A stretch of DNA of 64,000 bases from an uncultured Alphaproteobacteria bacterium (GTDB taxonomy: Bacteria > Pseudomonadota > Alphaproteobacteria > Rs-D84). The notes under the pieces were generated by a model that was given only the letters and a program-made list of their open reading frames with translations, was not told the origin of the DNA and ran no database searches. Position numbers and translations under genes: made by a program. Each line of letters begins with the position of its first letter. Within the stretch, counting starts at the first letter, position 1. Shown here in pieces: positions 8,788-48,830 of this stretch. Location: NCBI GenBank assembly GCA_944389515.1, contig CALXMQ010000006.1, forward strand, positions 1 through 64,000, in the 5' to 3' direction.

Positions 8788-8873
8788 TAAAGAAACTTGA
8801 TGTATGGTGTTTGTGTCATCATACTGTCAAACGTCGGGTTTTCCGGGCATTTCCGGATTACAGGGAGAGTTTA

Positions 8874-11093
8874 ATGAAACGCCATAATTTCGCAGAAAAT
8901 TTCAAAAACGCGATGGGGACAGTATTTTTACTGGCGGGCGCATTTTTTGTATGTTCAACATTGGTTTCTATGCGTGCCGTGTTGGCTGATCCTATTGCGC
9001 CAACTGTTACAACGCCGGTGGCATCTGTTCAGTCGCCCCGTAACGGCAGCAGTGTCCGTTCATCCGCGCGGCCAACAACATCGCGTGGGAATTCTGCAAA
9101 TATTGTATCACGTGGTAATGGAACAACAACGGTTACATCATCGCGTGCGGTAACGTCACGTGCAAATGTTGCACGTACTGCAACTGCGACACCAACGGCA
9201 TCGCGCGCGGCAACAACCACATCCCGTGGTACAGTAACTGCGACGGCACGCCCCAGTACAACTGCATCACGTGGAACAACGGCAAATGTTGCATCCCGTG
9301 GGACGGTATCGCGTGGCAATACAACGCGTAATGTAATATCACGTGCAACAACAACCAATGCGGCAAATCCGTCACGTGCGGTGGTATCGCGGTCGACAAC
9401 ATCACCGTCACGCGTATCTTTACAGGGCAGTGCAATCCGTGGCAGTAAATCATCCATCAATTCAAATACTTATACATACTTGTCTAACAGATTGTACACT
9501 GGCAATTATTCAAACATAATTGATTCATCAACCGGCCTGATTTCAGCAGAGGCATATAATAACTGCAAAGAATCATATTATGCATGTATGGACGAAATCT
9601 GCACGGCACGTAACGCAGCCCAGCGTCGTTGCGCATGTGCCGGCCGTGTAAAGGCTTTTGCAGAGGCCGAAGCCGCCCTGGAACAGGCAAATGAAGAATT
9701 GATAAAGGTTTCTGGTGAATTAGCATTGTTGATTGCAACCAAGGGTAAAGATGTCAGCCAGGCTTTCCAACTGACTGATGCAGAAAAGGTTATGAACTGC
9801 GTTTCATGGAAAGATGTAACAGATCAATATGGTGAATCTTCGGACGAAGCGGTCGAATGGTGCAATAACCACGGTATTTATGGTTCTAATGGCAGTGCAT
9901 TGTCATCATGTTCAAAACCATCGTATTGCACTGAATCTGGGAATAATTTTGGTTTTGATATTTCCAGTATTGACGGCAACAGCAGTGATATCTTGGCGTC
10001 CCTGCAATCTTGGGCCAAGGCCAAAGAAAATACATTGACTATTTTGGCCGATGATACAGACAGTCTGACATCTGCATTTGATGATTTGACAAATGTCGTT
10101 GGCAGTTTGGCTGGTATCGATGGCGCCTTTGCAGACAGTGAAAATTTGAAAGATTCGCTGGCTGAAACATGGGGATACGAATTGTTTGAATATGCACACA
10201 ATAACGTATGTAACCGTGTGTTGGATTCCTGCTTTAACGGTATATACGAAGCGTGCGGTACACCACCGTCTGGCGGTACAAAATGCGGCAACGGTCGTTC
10301 CCAGTGCCCGTATAACTATAACAGTTATATATCTGTATCAAACACTGGTTCATATGAATTGGACTTTATAGAACCAAATACTGGGTATACTGCATCTAAT
10401 TCGGCGACATGCTTTGGTTATACATCTGCGTCTGGCGACCCGTATTCTGATTTGCGTGGACCAGTTGCTGATGCACGTCGCAGTATTATGCAGCAATATG
10501 CATTGGATGCAAATGCAGACTGTGATGCATATGGTGAACAACTGAGTGCAACTGCCCAAAATATCGGTTATCAAAAGGTTGCGGCACAACAGGCATTGCA
10601 ACAAAAACGTCTGGAATTCTATCAAGAAGAACAAGAAACAACGTTAAATGAAGCAACCGCCGCAGGTACAAACTTTAATGAATGTTTAAGTGAAATCTTT
10701 GATTGCTATGAAAGCACGGCAGATTCAGAAAATTGGACGACCGCACGTATTAAAACATACTGTGCCCAGGTTGCGAACGTTCCACATTGCTATGAAACGA
10801 TGATTTGTAACCCGTCAACATCGCAATTCCGTGCAATTATTGATGAACAAGATAACACGTCTTGCAATAACAGCCAGAATTACGAAGAAAACACATGCCG
10901 TAACGTTGTGACACTGAACGAAATCTTGAACGGCGTAAATGGCGCAACGGTTACCGATGTGGATACACCACTGTGCATTGGCGAAGATGCGTCTAAGTGT
11001 AATTCCGCCAATCTGCGTGAACAGTGCTTGTTGAATAATTGGGTCAGTGAAATCCGTAATTGGGAAAGACCCAAAGAAGATGAAGGAAACTAA
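8874..11093 (+). CDS. Secreted Ser/Thr/Arg-rich and Cys-rich protein (paralogue 1), 739 aa
   Basis: Unrecognised family. In order: a signal peptide or anchor (hydrophobic 15-32, VLAD cleavage-like site); a low-complexity region of about 150 residues made of Ser, Thr, Ala, Val and many SRG or SRA units; then a Cys-rich domain opening with C-x3-SYYACMDEIC (Cys238) and RCACAGR, followed by a helical segment (AEAEAALEQANEEL); two further Cys-rich stretches; and a long Gln/Glu helix (VAAQQALQQKRLEFYQEEQ). The second copy at 12.6 kb shares this order. GGGAGAG precedes the ATG at 8874. Even Cys spacing suggests disulfides in the periplasm or at the surface. Confidence 0.75.
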   Translation: MKRHNFAENFKNAMGTVFLLAGAFFVCSTLVSMRAVLADPIAPTVTTPVASVQSPRNGSSVRSSARPTTSRGNSANIVSRGNGTTTVTSSRAVTSRANVARTATATPTASRAATTTSRGTVTATARPSTTASRGTTANVASRGTVSRGNTTRNVISRATTTNAANPSRAVVSRSTTSPSRVSLQGSAIRGSKSSINSNTYTYLSNRLYTGNYSNIIDSSTGLISAEAYNNCKESYYACMDEICTARNAAQRRCACAGRVKAFAEAEAALEQANEELIKVSGELALLIATKGKDVSQAFQLTDAEKVMNCVSWKDVTDQYGESSDEAVEWCNNHGIYGSNGSALSSCSKPSYCTESGNNFGFDISSIDGNSSDILASLQSWAKAKENTLTILADDTDSLTSAFDDLTNVVGSLAGIDGAFADSENLKDSLAETWGYELFEYAHNNVCNRVLDSCFNGIYEACGTPPSGGTKCGNGRSQCPYNYNSYISVSNTGSYELDFIEPNTGYTASNSATCFGYTSASGDPYSDLRGPVADARRSIMQQYALDANADCDAYGEQLSATAQNIGYQKVAAQQALQQKRLEFYQEEQETTLNEATAAGTNFNECLSEIFDCYESTADSENWTTARIKTYCAQVANVPHCYETMICNPSTSQFRAIIDEQDNTSCNNSQNYEENTCRNVVTLNEILNGVNGATVTDVDTPLCIGEDASKCNSANLREQCLLNNWVSEIRNWERPKEDEGN

Positions 11094-11273: not shown

Positions 11274-11419
11274 GGAACTTTGCTATTGCCCCATTGCGGA
11301 ACAAGTTACTCTTTGCGATAGGGGAATTATTTCGCGACAGGACGAAAGCAAAGTTCCCCTCTGCGGAGGGGTGGCACGCAGTGTCGGGGTGGTCAGAGAG
11401 TTCGAGAATATACACTTGC
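11274..11419 (+). repeat. Palindromic intergenic element, copy 1
   Basis: About 146 bp that match 12304-12449 closely, best in the segment from 11334 to 11400. Internal pairing is strong: GGAACTTTGC (11274-11283) with GCAAAGTTCC (11348-11357), and CCCCTC with GAGGGG around TGCG. Only a 9-base remnant of the outer left arm (ACCACCCCG, near 11208) is seen. Small open frames across it are not convincing genes. The 465-bp gap before rplU holds nothing else that I recognise. Confidence 0.8.
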
Positions 11420-12263: not shown

Positions 12264-12449
12264 CTGACCACCCCGGCACTGCGTGCCATCAATCCAATGG
12301 ATGGGAAATTTGCTATTGTCCCATTGCGAAACAAATTCTAATCTGTGATAGGGAACTGGTTCTGCGACAGGACGAAAGCAAAGTTCCCCTCTGCGGAGGG
12401 GTGGCACGCAGTGCCGGGGTGGTCAGAGAATTCGAAAATATCTACTTGC
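12264..12449 (+). repeat. Palindromic intergenic element, copy 2, with 25-bp inverted ends
   Basis: The core 12304-12449 matches 11274-11419. In addition 12264-12288 (starting CTGACCACCCCGG) is the exact reverse complement of 12402-12426 (ending CCGGGGTGGTCAG), a perfect 25-bp inverted repeat. The interior is also imperfectly self-complementary, so a transcript would fold into one long hairpin with a CCCCTC-TGCG-GAGGGG side stem. No transposase is nearby; it looks like a MITE-like or REP-like element. Confidence 0.8.
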
Positions 12450-12601: not shown

Positions 12602-15001
12602 ATGAGAAGATTGCCCCTGTGCTTTTTCTTGATTGCGTTTTCTGCGCCGTTGGCCTTTGCCGACGGTACATCTATATCGCGTGTAATTCCGACGGATAAT
12701 GCATCGTCGGGTACGGGACAAACATCGCGCAGTACGGCCACAAATGTGTCGCGTGGTAATCCATCACGCGCAACGGCAACATTGCCGTCCACCGTGACCC
12801 AGGTACCATCAGCGTCGTCAAATGCCAGTGAATCTGACGCGTCAAACGTGACGCGCAGTGTGGTAAATCGTGCCGCCACCACAAATGCGGCAACAAAATC
12901 AGATACTGTGCGTGTGGGGGCGCGTGTTTTAGATTTGGGTAATTCAACCACGGCCACGGGCACAACCGCACGTGGGACCAGTACCACGATACGTACCGGT
13001 AATGCGTCGCGCGCAGATGTGTCACAAACGGCGGATACATCGGCACGTGCAAATTTGACGGCCACGGTAAATACGGTGGGACGTAACGCGCGTGTTGAAT
13101 CCGCAGGAATAAACAATAATCCGGCGGTTCGTCGTGCTGGGCTGACATTGCGCCCATCCACGGCCGAGGTTGGCGGTCGTGCCACCATCGCAGGTACAGA
13201 TATTCAAACGGGTTCAAATATTGATGAAGAAATTCGTGGGGTCAGATCACGTGCTGCCACGTCTGTGCCAACCGCAGAATCTATTGCAGAGGCCACAGAA
13301 CGTCTGAATCTGACATCGGATTTGAATGCATCATGTCAACAGCAATATAACGATTGTATGGATCAGTTTTGTAATGTTATTGACGCGAACCAGGGGCGTT
13401 GTTCATGTTCTGCGAATTTGTCTGATTATACAGATGTAGAAGAAGCCGTAACCGACGCCAATAATCAATTAAATGAAGTGGCCCAGCGTATTCGTTATGT
13501 TGGATTGTCTGCGGATGAAATTCGCGCCATCATGAACGAGACCGAGGCAGAAGAAGCATTATCCGGTGCCAAAGATACATCTGAAACGCGTAATATGCTG
13601 GAAGAAATCGAAGAATTGATTCGCGACCCTGTGTCAAGTGTTTCGTATTCTTCAAATTCGACATCGTTTGGTCTGGATATGGATTTAAGTTTTTCTTCGA
13701 ACGTGGCGGATATATTCAGTTTAGATTTCTTGAACACCGGCACAACCAGTTTTTCAAATCTGCGTGGGACTGATTTGTACAATGCGGCCAAGAATCGTTG
13801 TCGTGTTGTTTTGAATCAGTGCGAAGAAGCCGGCGCAAACATTGATCAAATCACTGCGAATTACGATTTGGCGATTGATAAAGATTGCATTGCGTACGAA
13901 CAGGGATTGACCAAGATGAACGAAACATTGATATCAAATGTACGCAGTGCGAATTTAATGCTGCAAAAGGCACGGTTGGCTGTGATGCAGAATAAAAATC
14001 AATATGATGCCAAGGGTTGTATCGCGGCATTGGATACATGCATGACGGATGAAATGGTGTGTGGTGCAGATTATACCAAATGCCTGGATCCGACCAAGCG
14101 TTATATTGATGAAAATGGTGACGTTGTATTGGGGCAAGATATCACTGATATTCGTGATTTTATGACAACATATGATAATTCACAAATAGATTCTGGATTT
14201 TTGCAAAGTTCATATAATATGCCGATTGGCATAGAAAGTTGCAAGGCCACGCCCAATGGCGAAGATGATGTTGGTAACAATGGTGCGTGCATTGTAAAAT
14301 ATCTGTTGCAAAAAATTGGTACAAAGCAAGAAGTTACAGACGAAGGGCTGTGCCGTGCGGTTCTGGATAAATGCCAGGCATACACATACGACGATCGTGG
14401 TAATTACAAGGCGTACAATGATGTCGTTGTAAATTATATTCAACGTGCCATGGTGAATATCCAGGCTGAACAACGCCAGATTATATCAGATTACGCATCA
14501 AGTTGTATGCTGGATGTTGCAAATTGTTATAATCAACAAGTAACCCAGGTAAACGCATGGTCAACCAGTGCCAGTGTAAACAGCATATTTAATGTTATGA
14601 ACGGTGCGTGCCGTAATGTTGCATTGACATGCGCATATGCGGTGTTTGATGGTGATACAGACCTGTGTTCTGCAACAAATCAAACCAGTTGCATACAAAA
14701 TATATCTGAAATGTTTTATCAATCATTGTTATGTCCGGATAATTCAATATATGATGCTAGTTGCGCAAGCAATGCTGAAAACTGTGTCAATGAAAAGTGC
14801 AAATGTTTGGATAATTATGAAAAATGGGGTACACAATGTTTGGCGGCGTGTGGTGACCATGCACAACGTAATTCATATGGTTCATGTACGTGTATCAATG
14901 GGTTTGAAATGAAAAATGGTTTGTGCATTTGCCCCGAAGACAAGGTTATATCTGGTGACAGTTGCGTCAATATAGACGACAGGGACGATGGTACGCAATA
15001 A
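12602..15001 (+). CDS. Secreted Ser/Thr/Arg-rich and Cys-rich protein (paralogue 2), 799 aa
   Basis: Paralogue of the gene at 8874. It has a cleaner signal peptide (RRLPLCFFLIAFSAPLAFA), then about 200 residues of Ser/Thr/Ala/Asn with scattered SRG, SRA and TRS units, then the same Cys block: QQYNDCMDQFC (Cys252) and RCSCSANL followed by a helical stretch with ANNQLNEVAQ. Later blocks share a C-x-AYEQ...LQKARL pattern with paralogue 1. The C-terminal 90 residues are an extra EGF-like Cys-rich region (CVNEKCKCLDNYEKWGTQC, CTCINGFEMKNGLCICPEDK). Probably exported and disulfide-bonded; function unknown. The start has no ribosome site. Confidence 0.75.
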   Translation: MRRLPLCFFLIAFSAPLAFADGTSISRVIPTDNASSGTGQTSRSTATNVSRGNPSRATATLPSTVTQVPSASSNASESDASNVTRSVVNRAATTNAATKSDTVRVGARVLDLGNSTTATGTTARGTSTTIRTGNASRADVSQTADTSARANLTATVNTVGRNARVESAGINNNPAVRRAGLTLRPSTAEVGGRATIAGTDIQTGSNIDEEIRGVRSRAATSVPTAESIAEATERLNLTSDLNASCQQQYNDCMDQFCNVIDANQGRCSCSANLSDYTDVEEAVTDANNQLNEVAQRIRYVGLSADEIRAIMNETEAEEALSGAKDTSETRNMLEEIEELIRDPVSSVSYSSNSTSFGLDMDLSFSSNVADIFSLDFLNTGTTSFSNLRGTDLYNAAKNRCRVVLNQCEEAGANIDQITANYDLAIDKDCIAYEQGLTKMNETLISNVRSANLMLQKARLAVMQNKNQYDAKGCIAALDTCMTDEMVCGADYTKCLDPTKRYIDENGDVVLGQDITDIRDFMTTYDNSQIDSGFLQSSYNMPIGIESCKATPNGEDDVGNNGACIVKYLLQKIGTKQEVTDEGLCRAVLDKCQAYTYDDRGNYKAYNDVVVNYIQRAMVNIQAEQRQIISDYASSCMLDVANCYNQQVTQVNAWSTSASVNSIFNVMNGACRNVALTCAYAVFDGDTDLCSATNQTSCIQNISEMFYQSLLCPDNSIYDASCASNAENCVNEKCKCLDNYEKWGTQCLAACGDHAQRNSYGSCTCINGFEMKNGLCICPEDKVISGDSCVNIDDRDDGTQ

Positions 15002-15002
15002 T

Positions 15003-15029
15003 AAAACGGGGCATTTGCCCCGTTTTATT
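15003..15029 (+). terminator. Intrinsic terminator
   Basis: AAAACGGGGC (15003-15012) pairs with GCCCCGTTTT (15017-15026) around loop ATTT. Confidence 0.9.
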
Positions 15030-15071
15030 ATTGCCCCGGTATAATGGCGCCGGGGTGTTTTATTAAATCCG

Positions 15072-15100
15072 TTGCAAAGTTAAACATGCTGTGTAATAAT
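15072..15100 (+). promoter_or_regulatory. Promoter of the structured RNA
   Basis: TTGCAA (15072-15077) and AATAAT (15095-15100) are 17 bp apart, with a TGT just before the -10. Transcription would start near 15107, ahead of the folded region. Confidence 0.6.
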
Positions 15101-15107
15101 TACTGTG

Positions 15108-15257
15108 CATTGGTTGATTACCAATGTGGGGCTTACAAACCTCGTAAAGAAAAAAACTCCAACATCGGTTGGAGGGCTGCGAATATTCAATAAGCAGCGC
15201 TATTTTCTTTAATAGTTTGTAACCTCCAACCGCCCTTCATCACGGCGGTATTTTTTA
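15108..15257 (+). ncRNA. Structured non-coding RNA or leader of unknown family
   Basis: About 150 bases with nested perfect pairings: a 5' hairpin CATTGGT/ACCAATG; a closing stem TTACAAAC (15133-15140) with GTTTGTAA (15215-15222); a second stem TAAAGAAAA (15145-15153) with TTTTCTTTA (15203-15211); two inner hairpins, CTCCAAC-ATCG-GTTGGAG (15157-15174) and GCTGC/GCAGC (15176-15198); and a terminator ACCGCC (15229-15234) with GGCGGT (15244-15249) plus T-run. GGTTGGAGG can also pair with CCTCCAACC (15223-15231), an alternative fold touching the terminator. It could be a free small RNA or an attenuator for the XRE gene. I do not recognise it as 6S, tmRNA, SRP or RNase P RNA. Confidence 0.7.
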
Positions 15258-15278
15258 ATAAAAAAATGGGGGAATATT

Positions 15279-15530
15279 ATGAAGGTAGTATTAGTAGATT
15301 CTGCATACTTTGGTGATGCATTGTCACATGCACGACAAAACGCACGAATAAATCGTCGTGATGCAGCACGCATGCTGGGTACAACAACAAAATATATTGG
15401 TAAATACGAAAGTGGAAAAATGCTGATACCAGCCCAGGTATTAGAGAGAATATTTCAAAATGGATTTATGATGTTATTGGCACGTAATTATAACAAGTAC
15501 CGCCCAATTCGGGATAAAGGTGATGATTAG
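15279..15530 (+). CDS. Small XRE-type DNA-binding protein
   Basis: This 83-aa protein is essentially one helix-turn-helix domain: ALSHARQNARINRRDAARML then TTTKYIGKYESGKMLIPAQVLE, as in Cro/C1-type regulators. The C-terminus is basic (NKYRPIRDKGDD). GGGGGA lies eight bases before the ATG. It starts 22 bases after the terminator of the structured RNA, so it may depend on read-through. Its target is unknown. The N-terminal strand MKVVLVDSAYF is unusual for a plain XRE domain. Confidence 0.8.
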   Translation: MKVVLVDSAYFGDALSHARQNARINRRDAARMLGTTTKYIGKYESGKMLIPAQVLERIFQNGFMMLLARNYNKYRPIRDKGDD

Positions 15531-15544
15531 TTATGTGCAATAAA

Positions 15545-48131: not shown

Positions 48132-48830
48132 TTATATTTCACCGTCATCGGTCAAATATCCTGTATCCAAAGGATCGCCATTTCCAGATTCAACCGTGTA
48201 TTCAGAAACGCGGATTCCCAATGGATTATTCATACGGTCAGACCATTTTATTTCTGGGGTATCTGCCATATCTAGTTTTATTCTTATTTTATAATCTTTT
48301 TTATCCATCTGTCTATTACTATCTTCACAGAAATATTTGAAATTTACAGAATATTCATTGTTTTCTGTATTTATTGGTTCAATCGCCAATGTATTGGTGG
48401 TATCAAATTCCACAGAACAAGAAAATTCAAAGTCTGGGACGCCACTCATCCACGCGTTCCACATATTTGTTTGTGTAAATGCACTGTATACATCTGGCGC
48501 AGACCATGCATACACAACGCCGTCAACATCGTTGTTCCATTTTGTACGCATTTCACGGGCGTTTGGCACAATTTCATTTCTGGCGCGGATATATTCACGG
48601 ATAAATGTTCGTTTATATATATCCAGATTTTCATCACTGGGCACCATTTCACGCAAAACAATTTCTAAATCATTTTTTGGTGCAGACATTAAAAAGAAGA
48701 CCTGGGGACGGTTTAATGGATACATGTTATACAGCGTTATACCCAATACCCCCAGCACCACCAACATTGCGGCGAACACAAATGTCATCAACCTGGACAG
48801 TAAAATTGGCGGTTCAACACGGGTTTGCAA
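48132..48830 (-). CDS. VirB8-like type IV secretion protein
   Basis: About 232 aa. A short cytoplasmic tail and one membrane helix (LMTFVFAAMLVVLGVLGITL) precede a periplasmic NTF2-like domain with KRTFIREYIRARNEIVPNAR and VYSAFTQTNMWNAWM, matching VirB8/TrbF/DotI-type proteins that assemble the inner-membrane complex. I choose a TTG start at 48830 because AAGGAG lies nine bases upstream; the frame stays open to 48887 but without a ribosome site. First gene of the operon, 34 bases before virB9. No VirB4, VirB6 or VirB11 genes are in the window. Confidence 0.82.
   Translation of the reverse strand: MQTRVEPPILLSRLMTFVFAAMLVVLGVLGITLYNMYPLNRPQVFFLMSAPKNDLEIVLREMVPSDENLDIYKRTFIREYIRARNEIVPNAREMRTKWNNDVDGVVYAWSAPDVYSAFTQTNMWNAWMSGVPDFEFSCSVEFDTTNTLAIEPINTENNEYSVNFKYFCEDSNRQMDKKDYKIRIKLDMADTPEIKWSDRMNNPLGIRVSEYTVESGNGDPLDTGYLTDDGEI

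Follow-up and report, generated by a model that had tools for sequence, protein, structure and literature searches.

A family of probable C4-type antisense leaders with copy-specific pairing segments precedes XRE and surface-protein genes in gut Alphaproteobacteria

The C4 antisense RNA of phages P1 and P7 is processed by RNase P at the motif GGW; its segment b' occludes the ribosome binding site (RBS), while a' confers specificity (PMC5320573). Relatives of C4 act in trans, and 21 C4-like sRNAs are described for A. baumannii (PMC5320573). In a listing of RNA motifs, c4 is assigned to Proteobacteria and phages, and c4-a1b1 to Gammaproteobacteria and phages (PMC2864571). A further RNA, sRNA-Xcc1, is about 88 nt long (PMC2996969) and is located upstream of symE in integron cassettes (PMC12444791). 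The phage P1 record annotates a1, b1, C4, a2 and b2. According to sequence and folding, the loop of leader hairpin 2 bears a1, b1 comes next, b' occupies the third loop of C4, and a' is placed between the third and the closing stem. The HTH-XRE RNA motif is a Clostridiales motif found upstream of XRE genes.

The window, a stretch of 64,000 nucleotides, belongs to a Candidatus Enterousia-type gut alphaproteobacterium, whose genome (G000) comprises 947 kb (0.95 Mb) on 14 contigs. The window is predicted to encode a genuine structured RNA of approximately 150 nt in front of a gene for a small DNA-binding protein (Table 1). The segment 15110-15257 folds at -52.1 kcal/mol (z -5.8), a value equalled by 0 of 200 shuffles. 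The original prediction, made from the letters of the sequence, had listed a promoter (TTGCAA-17-AATAAT, 15072-15100), nested stems of 8 bp (15133-15140/15215-15222) and 9 bp (15145-15153/15203-15211), two inner hairpins, an intrinsic terminator and a small XRE gene downstream. All of these are present, the terminator with its stem at 15229-15249 and a T-run, the XRE gene with its start at 15279. The RNA was also said to be unrecognised, and indeed the window gave no Rfam match even at E 10, save chance matches to upstream terminators.

Table 1. Positions of the RNA element and of adjoining features in the window.
Feature	Position	Strand	Remarks
Promoter	15072-15100	+	-35 box TTGCAA 15072-15077, -10 box AATAAT 15095-15100; transcription start expected at about 15107
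H1, 5' hairpin (GCATTGG..CCAATGT)	15107-15127	+	first hairpin of the c4-a1b1-like 5' domain
H2 hairpin	15128-15143	+	loop side bears target a1 (15133-15140); partner a' at 15215-15222
Target b1	15145-15153	+	partner b' (15203-15211) in the loop of the third stem
Competitor strand (CTCCAAC)	15157-15163	+	pairs with 15168-15174 (P3), excluding the closing stem of the C4-like domain
Candidate RNase P cut before GGU	15166-15167	+	proposed from sequence signs and the published motif GGW (PMC5320573)
C4-like domain, three stems	15167-15231	+	closing stem 15167-15175/15223-15231
C4-like second stem	15176-15180/15194-15198	+	loop AAUAU..CAAUAA
C4-like third stem (CTAT/ATAG)	15200-15203/15212-15215	+	covariation
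Antisense segments	15203-15222	+	b' 15203-15211 (third loop), a' 15215-15222 (junction), then CCTCC 15223-15227
Intrinsic terminator	15229-15257	+	stem ACCGCC/GGCGGT 15229-15249, then T-run
Shine-Dalgarno sequence of the XRE gene (GGGGG)	15268-15272	+	can pair with CCUCC 15223-15227
XRE/Cro-type HTH gene, 83 aa	15279-15530	+	Pfam HTH_3 25.6 bits (cut-off 23)

Related copies were collected with R1, a covariance model based on 39 copies that all stem from the order of the window (Enterousia-type) and include no distant sequences. A sequence search detected four more copies in the own genome at 81-86% identity, and R1 detected 19 at E < 1e-5, which brings the genome to about 19 in all. The element is present in 184 of 201 genomes of this order, which includes Candidatus Enterousia and gut MAGs of ruminants and other animals. 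Among 385 genomes sampled from the class, a broader model, R2, matched 33, of which 29 lie outside the genus of the window; in a phylum sample of 398 genomes a single match (G847) fell outside the class. No description of the family in Alphaproteobacteria was found in the open-access literature searched. Three IMG/VR contigs classed as viral (L200, L201, L202) also bear the element. At seven loci (L102, L094, L114, L115, L120, L136, L245) two or three elements stand in tandem before one gene. A 58-nt remnant in the own genome (L221, G000:C3:8435-8492) has kept H2, a short stretch and the terminator and is without the C4-like domain.

The family also clarified the flanking signals. Taken alone, the window promoter does not exceed chance, with four promoter-like sites found in the region and 3.0 expected. 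Across the family, 90 of 110 copies have a promoter-like site upstream, compared with 42 in shuffles, and its spacing is fixed, the -10 box lying a median of 27 nt upstream of hairpin 2 (interquartile range 27-29). A stem of at least 5 bp occupies the H1 position in 97 of 111 copies, compared to 22 shuffled ones, and H1 aligns with hairpin 1 of RF03163 in the distant locus L253. In 100 of 112 copies, the 8 nt after the terminator stem include at least five U residues. An ATG within the element, considered as the start of a leader peptide, occurs in one copy and is not conserved in the alignment; this candidate was discarded.

Covariation was analysed in an alignment of 113 distinct copies, A5, which was fitted to R1. 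Across the A5 structure (H2, a1-a', b1-b' and the closing, second and third stems) 95.0% of the cells are paired, and 29 of 33 pairs changed on both sides. The covariation score was 0.595, versus 0.177 in shuffles and less than 0.08 when the structure was slid along the alignment. Because A5 was fitted to R1, the counts favour the model for those helices that R1 contains, namely a1-a' (97.6% paired, double changes in 6/6 pairs), b1-b' (95.3%, 5/5), P3 (15157-15163 with 15168-15174; 92.0%, 6/7), the second stem (99.1%) and the terminator (95.7%, 5/5). H2 (84.7%, 3/4), the third stem (94.2%) and the closing stem (about 95%, 7/8 aligned pairs) are absent from R1 and covary nonetheless. A MAFFT alignment of 39 copies, fitted to no structure, yielded an equal result, which none of 500 shuffles reached. 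In some copies the closing stem was swapped as a unit, GGTTGGAGG/CCTCCAACC being replaced by GGTCAGGAGG/CCTCCTGACC or GGCAGGAAG/CTTCCTGCC. The check on relatives that accompanied the original prediction, covariation or conservation of the stems, thus came out strongly positive.

The reading of the two nested stems was modified, although the pairing itself holds. An interpretation in which GGGG/CCTC prolongs a1-a' into one simple nested stem was rejected: distant copies keep GGGG/CCTC solely as the local hairpin H2, and the structural model was therefore revised to two pseudoknots. The 8-bp stem is better described as target a1 with a', and the 9-bp stem as target b1 with the b' loop. Two features of a C4 leader were found. 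All three stems of the C4-like domain covary and form the same fold as P1 C4, and the segments in its third loop (b') and junction (a') are complementary to b1 and a1 in the leader.

The sequence GGTTGGAGG (15167-15175) has two partners, either the upstream strand CTCCAAC (15157-15163) or the downstream strand CCTCCAACC (15223-15231). As the original prediction had proposed, two mutually exclusive folds exist, and both alternatives covary in relatives. Because the closing stem has a competitor in 15157-15163, a transcript would adopt either the complete C4-like fold or the P3-plus-terminator fold. Family-wide, the strand 15223-15231 has four possible partners: the side of H2 (via a1-a'), the 5' arm of the closing stem, the base of the terminator and the RBS. 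Its overlap with the terminator base in the window copy amounts to three bases, the ACC at 15229-15231 that the 5' arm of the terminator has in common with the closing stem. In the window copy the P3-plus-terminator fold reaches -55.8 kcal/mol and the fold with a forced closing stem -44.4 kcal/mol, a comparison that omits both pseudoknots of the closing-stem state. This greater stability and the competition of P3, closing stem, terminator and RBS pairing for the same strands are what an attenuator working in cis only would display. Such a leader would set termination and Shine-Dalgarno access by its folds during transcription, tuned by translation, temperature or transcription speed, and the copy-specific pairs would be mere intramolecular stems without action in trans.

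Whether the pairs are more than that can be judged from their specificity. Segments were exchanged computationally among 94 copies with a clear start codon. Duplexes of a' plus CCUCC with the copy's own H2 lay at -10.66 kcal/mol compared to -6.39 kcal/mol after swapping (z -22.8), and b' likewise preferred its own b1 (z -30.7). The match of a' plus CCUCC to the own RBS was also specific (-9.22 versus -7.73 kcal/mol, z -8.7). The controls were flat (H2 with RBS, z 0.0; closing strand with RBS, z -0.5; b' with H2, z 0.3). These permutation tests ignore relatedness, so that the z values do not come from independent samples; the controls have equal relatedness. For 17 of 17 tested copies of the own genome, the best pairing partner was the copy itself. 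In the window copy CCUCC (15223-15227) forms a duplex of about -9 kcal/mol with the Shine-Dalgarno sequence, where the match ends. Many other copies have a clear target a2 beside the RBS, for example L136, L218, L220 and L243.

Between recent paralogues the pairing segments differ by 48%, the conserved core by 11% and the downstream 210 nt by 7%, and still the segments remain complementary. L011 and L031 have an identical core and differ by 2% in the downstream 210 nt, yet half of their pairing bases have been replaced, with matching changes on the partner strand. Divergence of this kind is not required of intramolecular stems: double changes should be slower than changes in the surroundings, whereas 48% is opposed to 7%. 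Relatives of C4, moreover, act in trans (PMC5320573), and we regard an attenuator confined to cis as unlikely. The rapid divergence together with the self-specific pairing therefore leads us to prefer a trans-acting, self-specific antisense RNA over both this reading and a riboswitch. Such divergence would be expected if copies must avoid interference in trans, and a private pairing code in each copy suggests a set of non-interfering, self-silencing switches. At one copy of the XRE cassette (L005, G000:C1:131149-131324) a1 no longer fits a', while the C4-like domain and the XRE gene are retained; it is perhaps a decaying copy.

A riboswitch had been implied by the original prediction. In a new riboswitch class, binding of a small molecule to the fold with two pseudoknots (a1-a', b1-b', closing stem) would decide between this fold and the P3-plus-terminator fold. 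The location in a 5' leader with a terminator and mutually exclusive helices would suit this, as would the conserved unpaired bases of the second stem (GAAUAU..GAAUAA), the variety of downstream genes within one genome and the tandem copies, which some riboswitches also show. However, neither the window nor any tested family locus matched a known riboswitch aptamer family in Rfam, and the downstream genes share no common pathway. The strongest signals are paired segments that vary among copies and are matched within each copy; these copy-specific segments are the fastest-diverging part among paralogues, a change that no ligand pocket needs. The layout, in addition, is that of the C4 antisense leader of phage P1. 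A riboswitch is thus improbable. As a particular ligand, c-di-GMP is unlikely because GGDEF is absent from the own genome and five congeners; GGDEF is present in distant hosts.

Genes downstream of the element are positioned consistently. A same-strand ORF of at least 60 aa starts no more than 90 nt downstream in 90 of 116 copies, versus 30 of 116 on the opposite side, which served as control. The genes encode XRE regulators, secreted and lipoprotein-like proteins and an outer-membrane beta-barrel (Pfam OMP_b-brl), and some of the proteins look like pilins at their N-terminus. Behind five copies of the RNA the XRE gene is near-identical, and promoter, RNA and XRE gene were duplicated as a unit (window approximately 15001-15535 versus L002, L003, L004 and L005). 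The right end of this cassette is constant, just past the XRE stop codon, while the left end varies; comparable duplications occur in congeners. One might thus consider a mobile or selfish repeat that spreads as a promoter-RNA-XRE cassette and whose RNA serves movement or maintenance rather than regulation. The five copies in differing contexts, with homology ending just past the stop codon, and the similar duplications in congeners agree with this. Most copies of the RNA, however, precede unrelated genes, such as those for secreted or outer-membrane proteins, and no transposase was seen by eye beside the copies, which makes a mainly selfish role very improbable.

The surroundings of the window copy have further features. 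Directly upstream of the RNA lies a large ORF (12602-15001) with a secretion-signal-like start, SRGN-rich N-terminal repeats and a later cysteine-rich part, and a second large ORF of the same type is located at 8811-11093. A direct repeat of 146 nt (11274-11419 and 12304-12449, 86% identical, 1030 nt apart) flanks genes resembling rplU and rpmA.

Rfam was used to relate the family to described RNAs. Apart from tRNAs, 14 related loci showed no match at the cut-offs. Two distant members exceeded the cut-off of RF02221 (sRNA-Xcc1), L269 with 76.6 bits and L261 with 66.2 bits; bridging members reached 44-45 bits and weaker ones 27-36 bits, the matched part being the three stems of the C4-like domain. 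L252, L253, L255 and L256 matched RF02221 below its cut-off. R1 detects L252 and L253 at E of about 5e-11, in stretches to which RF02221 also matches (E 2e-5 to 4e-5), a bridge that points to common ancestry of sRNA-Xcc1 and the family of the window. As the window itself is without a match, L269 and L261 lie above the cut-off and the others below it, the window can be no more than a remote relative of sRNA-Xcc1. The 5' domain of L253 scores 26.5 bits against RF03163 (c4-a1b1), whose cut-off is 46.7. RF03163 found nothing in the own genome, RF01695 (C4) matched no family locus tested, and R2 gave no match on phage P1 C4, so that neither R2 nor RF01695 bridges P1 C4 and the family. The link to C4 proper therefore consists of the layout and the partial Rfam matches of distant members, some of which precede genes whose products look like phage BRO-N or KilA-N proteins.

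Sequence signs of possible RNase P processing were also observed. A GG..CC closing stem occurs in 93 copies, of which 88 begin with GGU or GGC. In a fixed stem register, the stem is followed on its 3' side by RCC in 52 of the 93 copies and by RCN in 83.

Taken together, the element is probably a C4-type antisense leader that is locus-specific and would silence its own gene. From the promoter at 15072-15100 a short RNA ending mostly near 15257 would be transcribed. Its 3' part (15167-15231) would adopt the three-stem C4-like fold, in which b' is exposed by the third loop and a' plus CCUCC by the junction. The matching targets for both segments, b1 and the a1 of the hairpin 2 loop, are located in the 5' part and would hold the antisense segments within one transcript. 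We infer that the short RNA is released, perhaps by an RNase P cut before the GGU at 15167. The freed segments may then bind in trans to the leader of read-through mRNAs from the same locus, and in many copies also to the RBS, which would keep expression of the gene low. With an own pairing code at each locus, copies should not cross-regulate. A more far-reaching proposal, to which we give somewhat less than even credence, is that about 19 mutually orthogonal, self-coded C4-type switches act genome-wide on XRE regulators and surface proteins in these reduced-genome gut alphaproteobacteria. Their codes would be under diversifying selection, so that duplicated loci avoid mutual silencing, in the manner of an immunity-like RNA system of self and non-self.

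One architecture would thereby tie the phage C4 antisense RNA and sRNA-Xcc1 to chromosomal leaders that form a large, hitherto unrecognised family throughout the Alphaproteobacteria. With many natural, matched antisense-target pairs that have orthogonal codes, the evolution of antisense specificity after gene duplication becomes directly testable. For uncultured gut bacteria, about whose regulation hardly anything is known, the family also suggests a candidate regulator of XRE genes and surface proteins.

In comparison with known systems, the HTH-XRE motif likewise lies upstream of XRE genes but belongs to another phylum; no copy here had an Rfam match to it, the literature yielded only a general microbiome screen, and this identity was rejected. 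Akin to the present family, Group 1 of the A. baumannii C4-like sRNAs has many chromosomal copies in one genome, a variable a' and apparent GGW processing (PMC5320573). It belongs to another class, however, its 5' Region 1 has little likeness to P1/P7, and the Group 1 section of that paper gives no matched leader targets. sRNA-Xcc1 resembles the element in its three stems and AAUA-rich second stem. The RF02221 model, however, represents the 87-nt 3' part alone, without the targets a1 and b1, the competitor strand and the terminator, and the RNA is described as a trans-acting sRNA of Xanthomonas and other proteobacteria. The window copy does not match RF02221.

P1 C4 differs from the element in several respects. 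No profile match links the window to it, and its second stem has a UUCG loop in place of the AAUAU/AAUAA internal loop. An intrinsic terminator directly follows the C4-like domain here, whereas P1 is without a terminator between C4 and the gene. On the RBS side, P1 uses b2 for the match, whereas here a' and the closing stem's 3' arm take part in it. Unlike P1 C4, the element is chromosomal, and its approximately 19 copies precede genes for XRE regulators and surface proteins. In the order of its parts, by contrast, it is identical to P1/P7 C4 (RF01695, RF03163). In both, the closing stem starts with GG, the RNA sits before the regulated gene, and the targets are copy-specific, differing between P1 and P7. 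Moreover, the 5' arm of C4 in P1 has a possible pairing partner in a strand just upstream of C4 (L304 196-240, P1 record approximately 48315-48359; duplex -23.9 kcal/mol, equalled by 5 of 1000 shuffled spacers). This strand is the counterpart of the competitor at 15157-15163, and is possibly an unremarked switch in the classic system.
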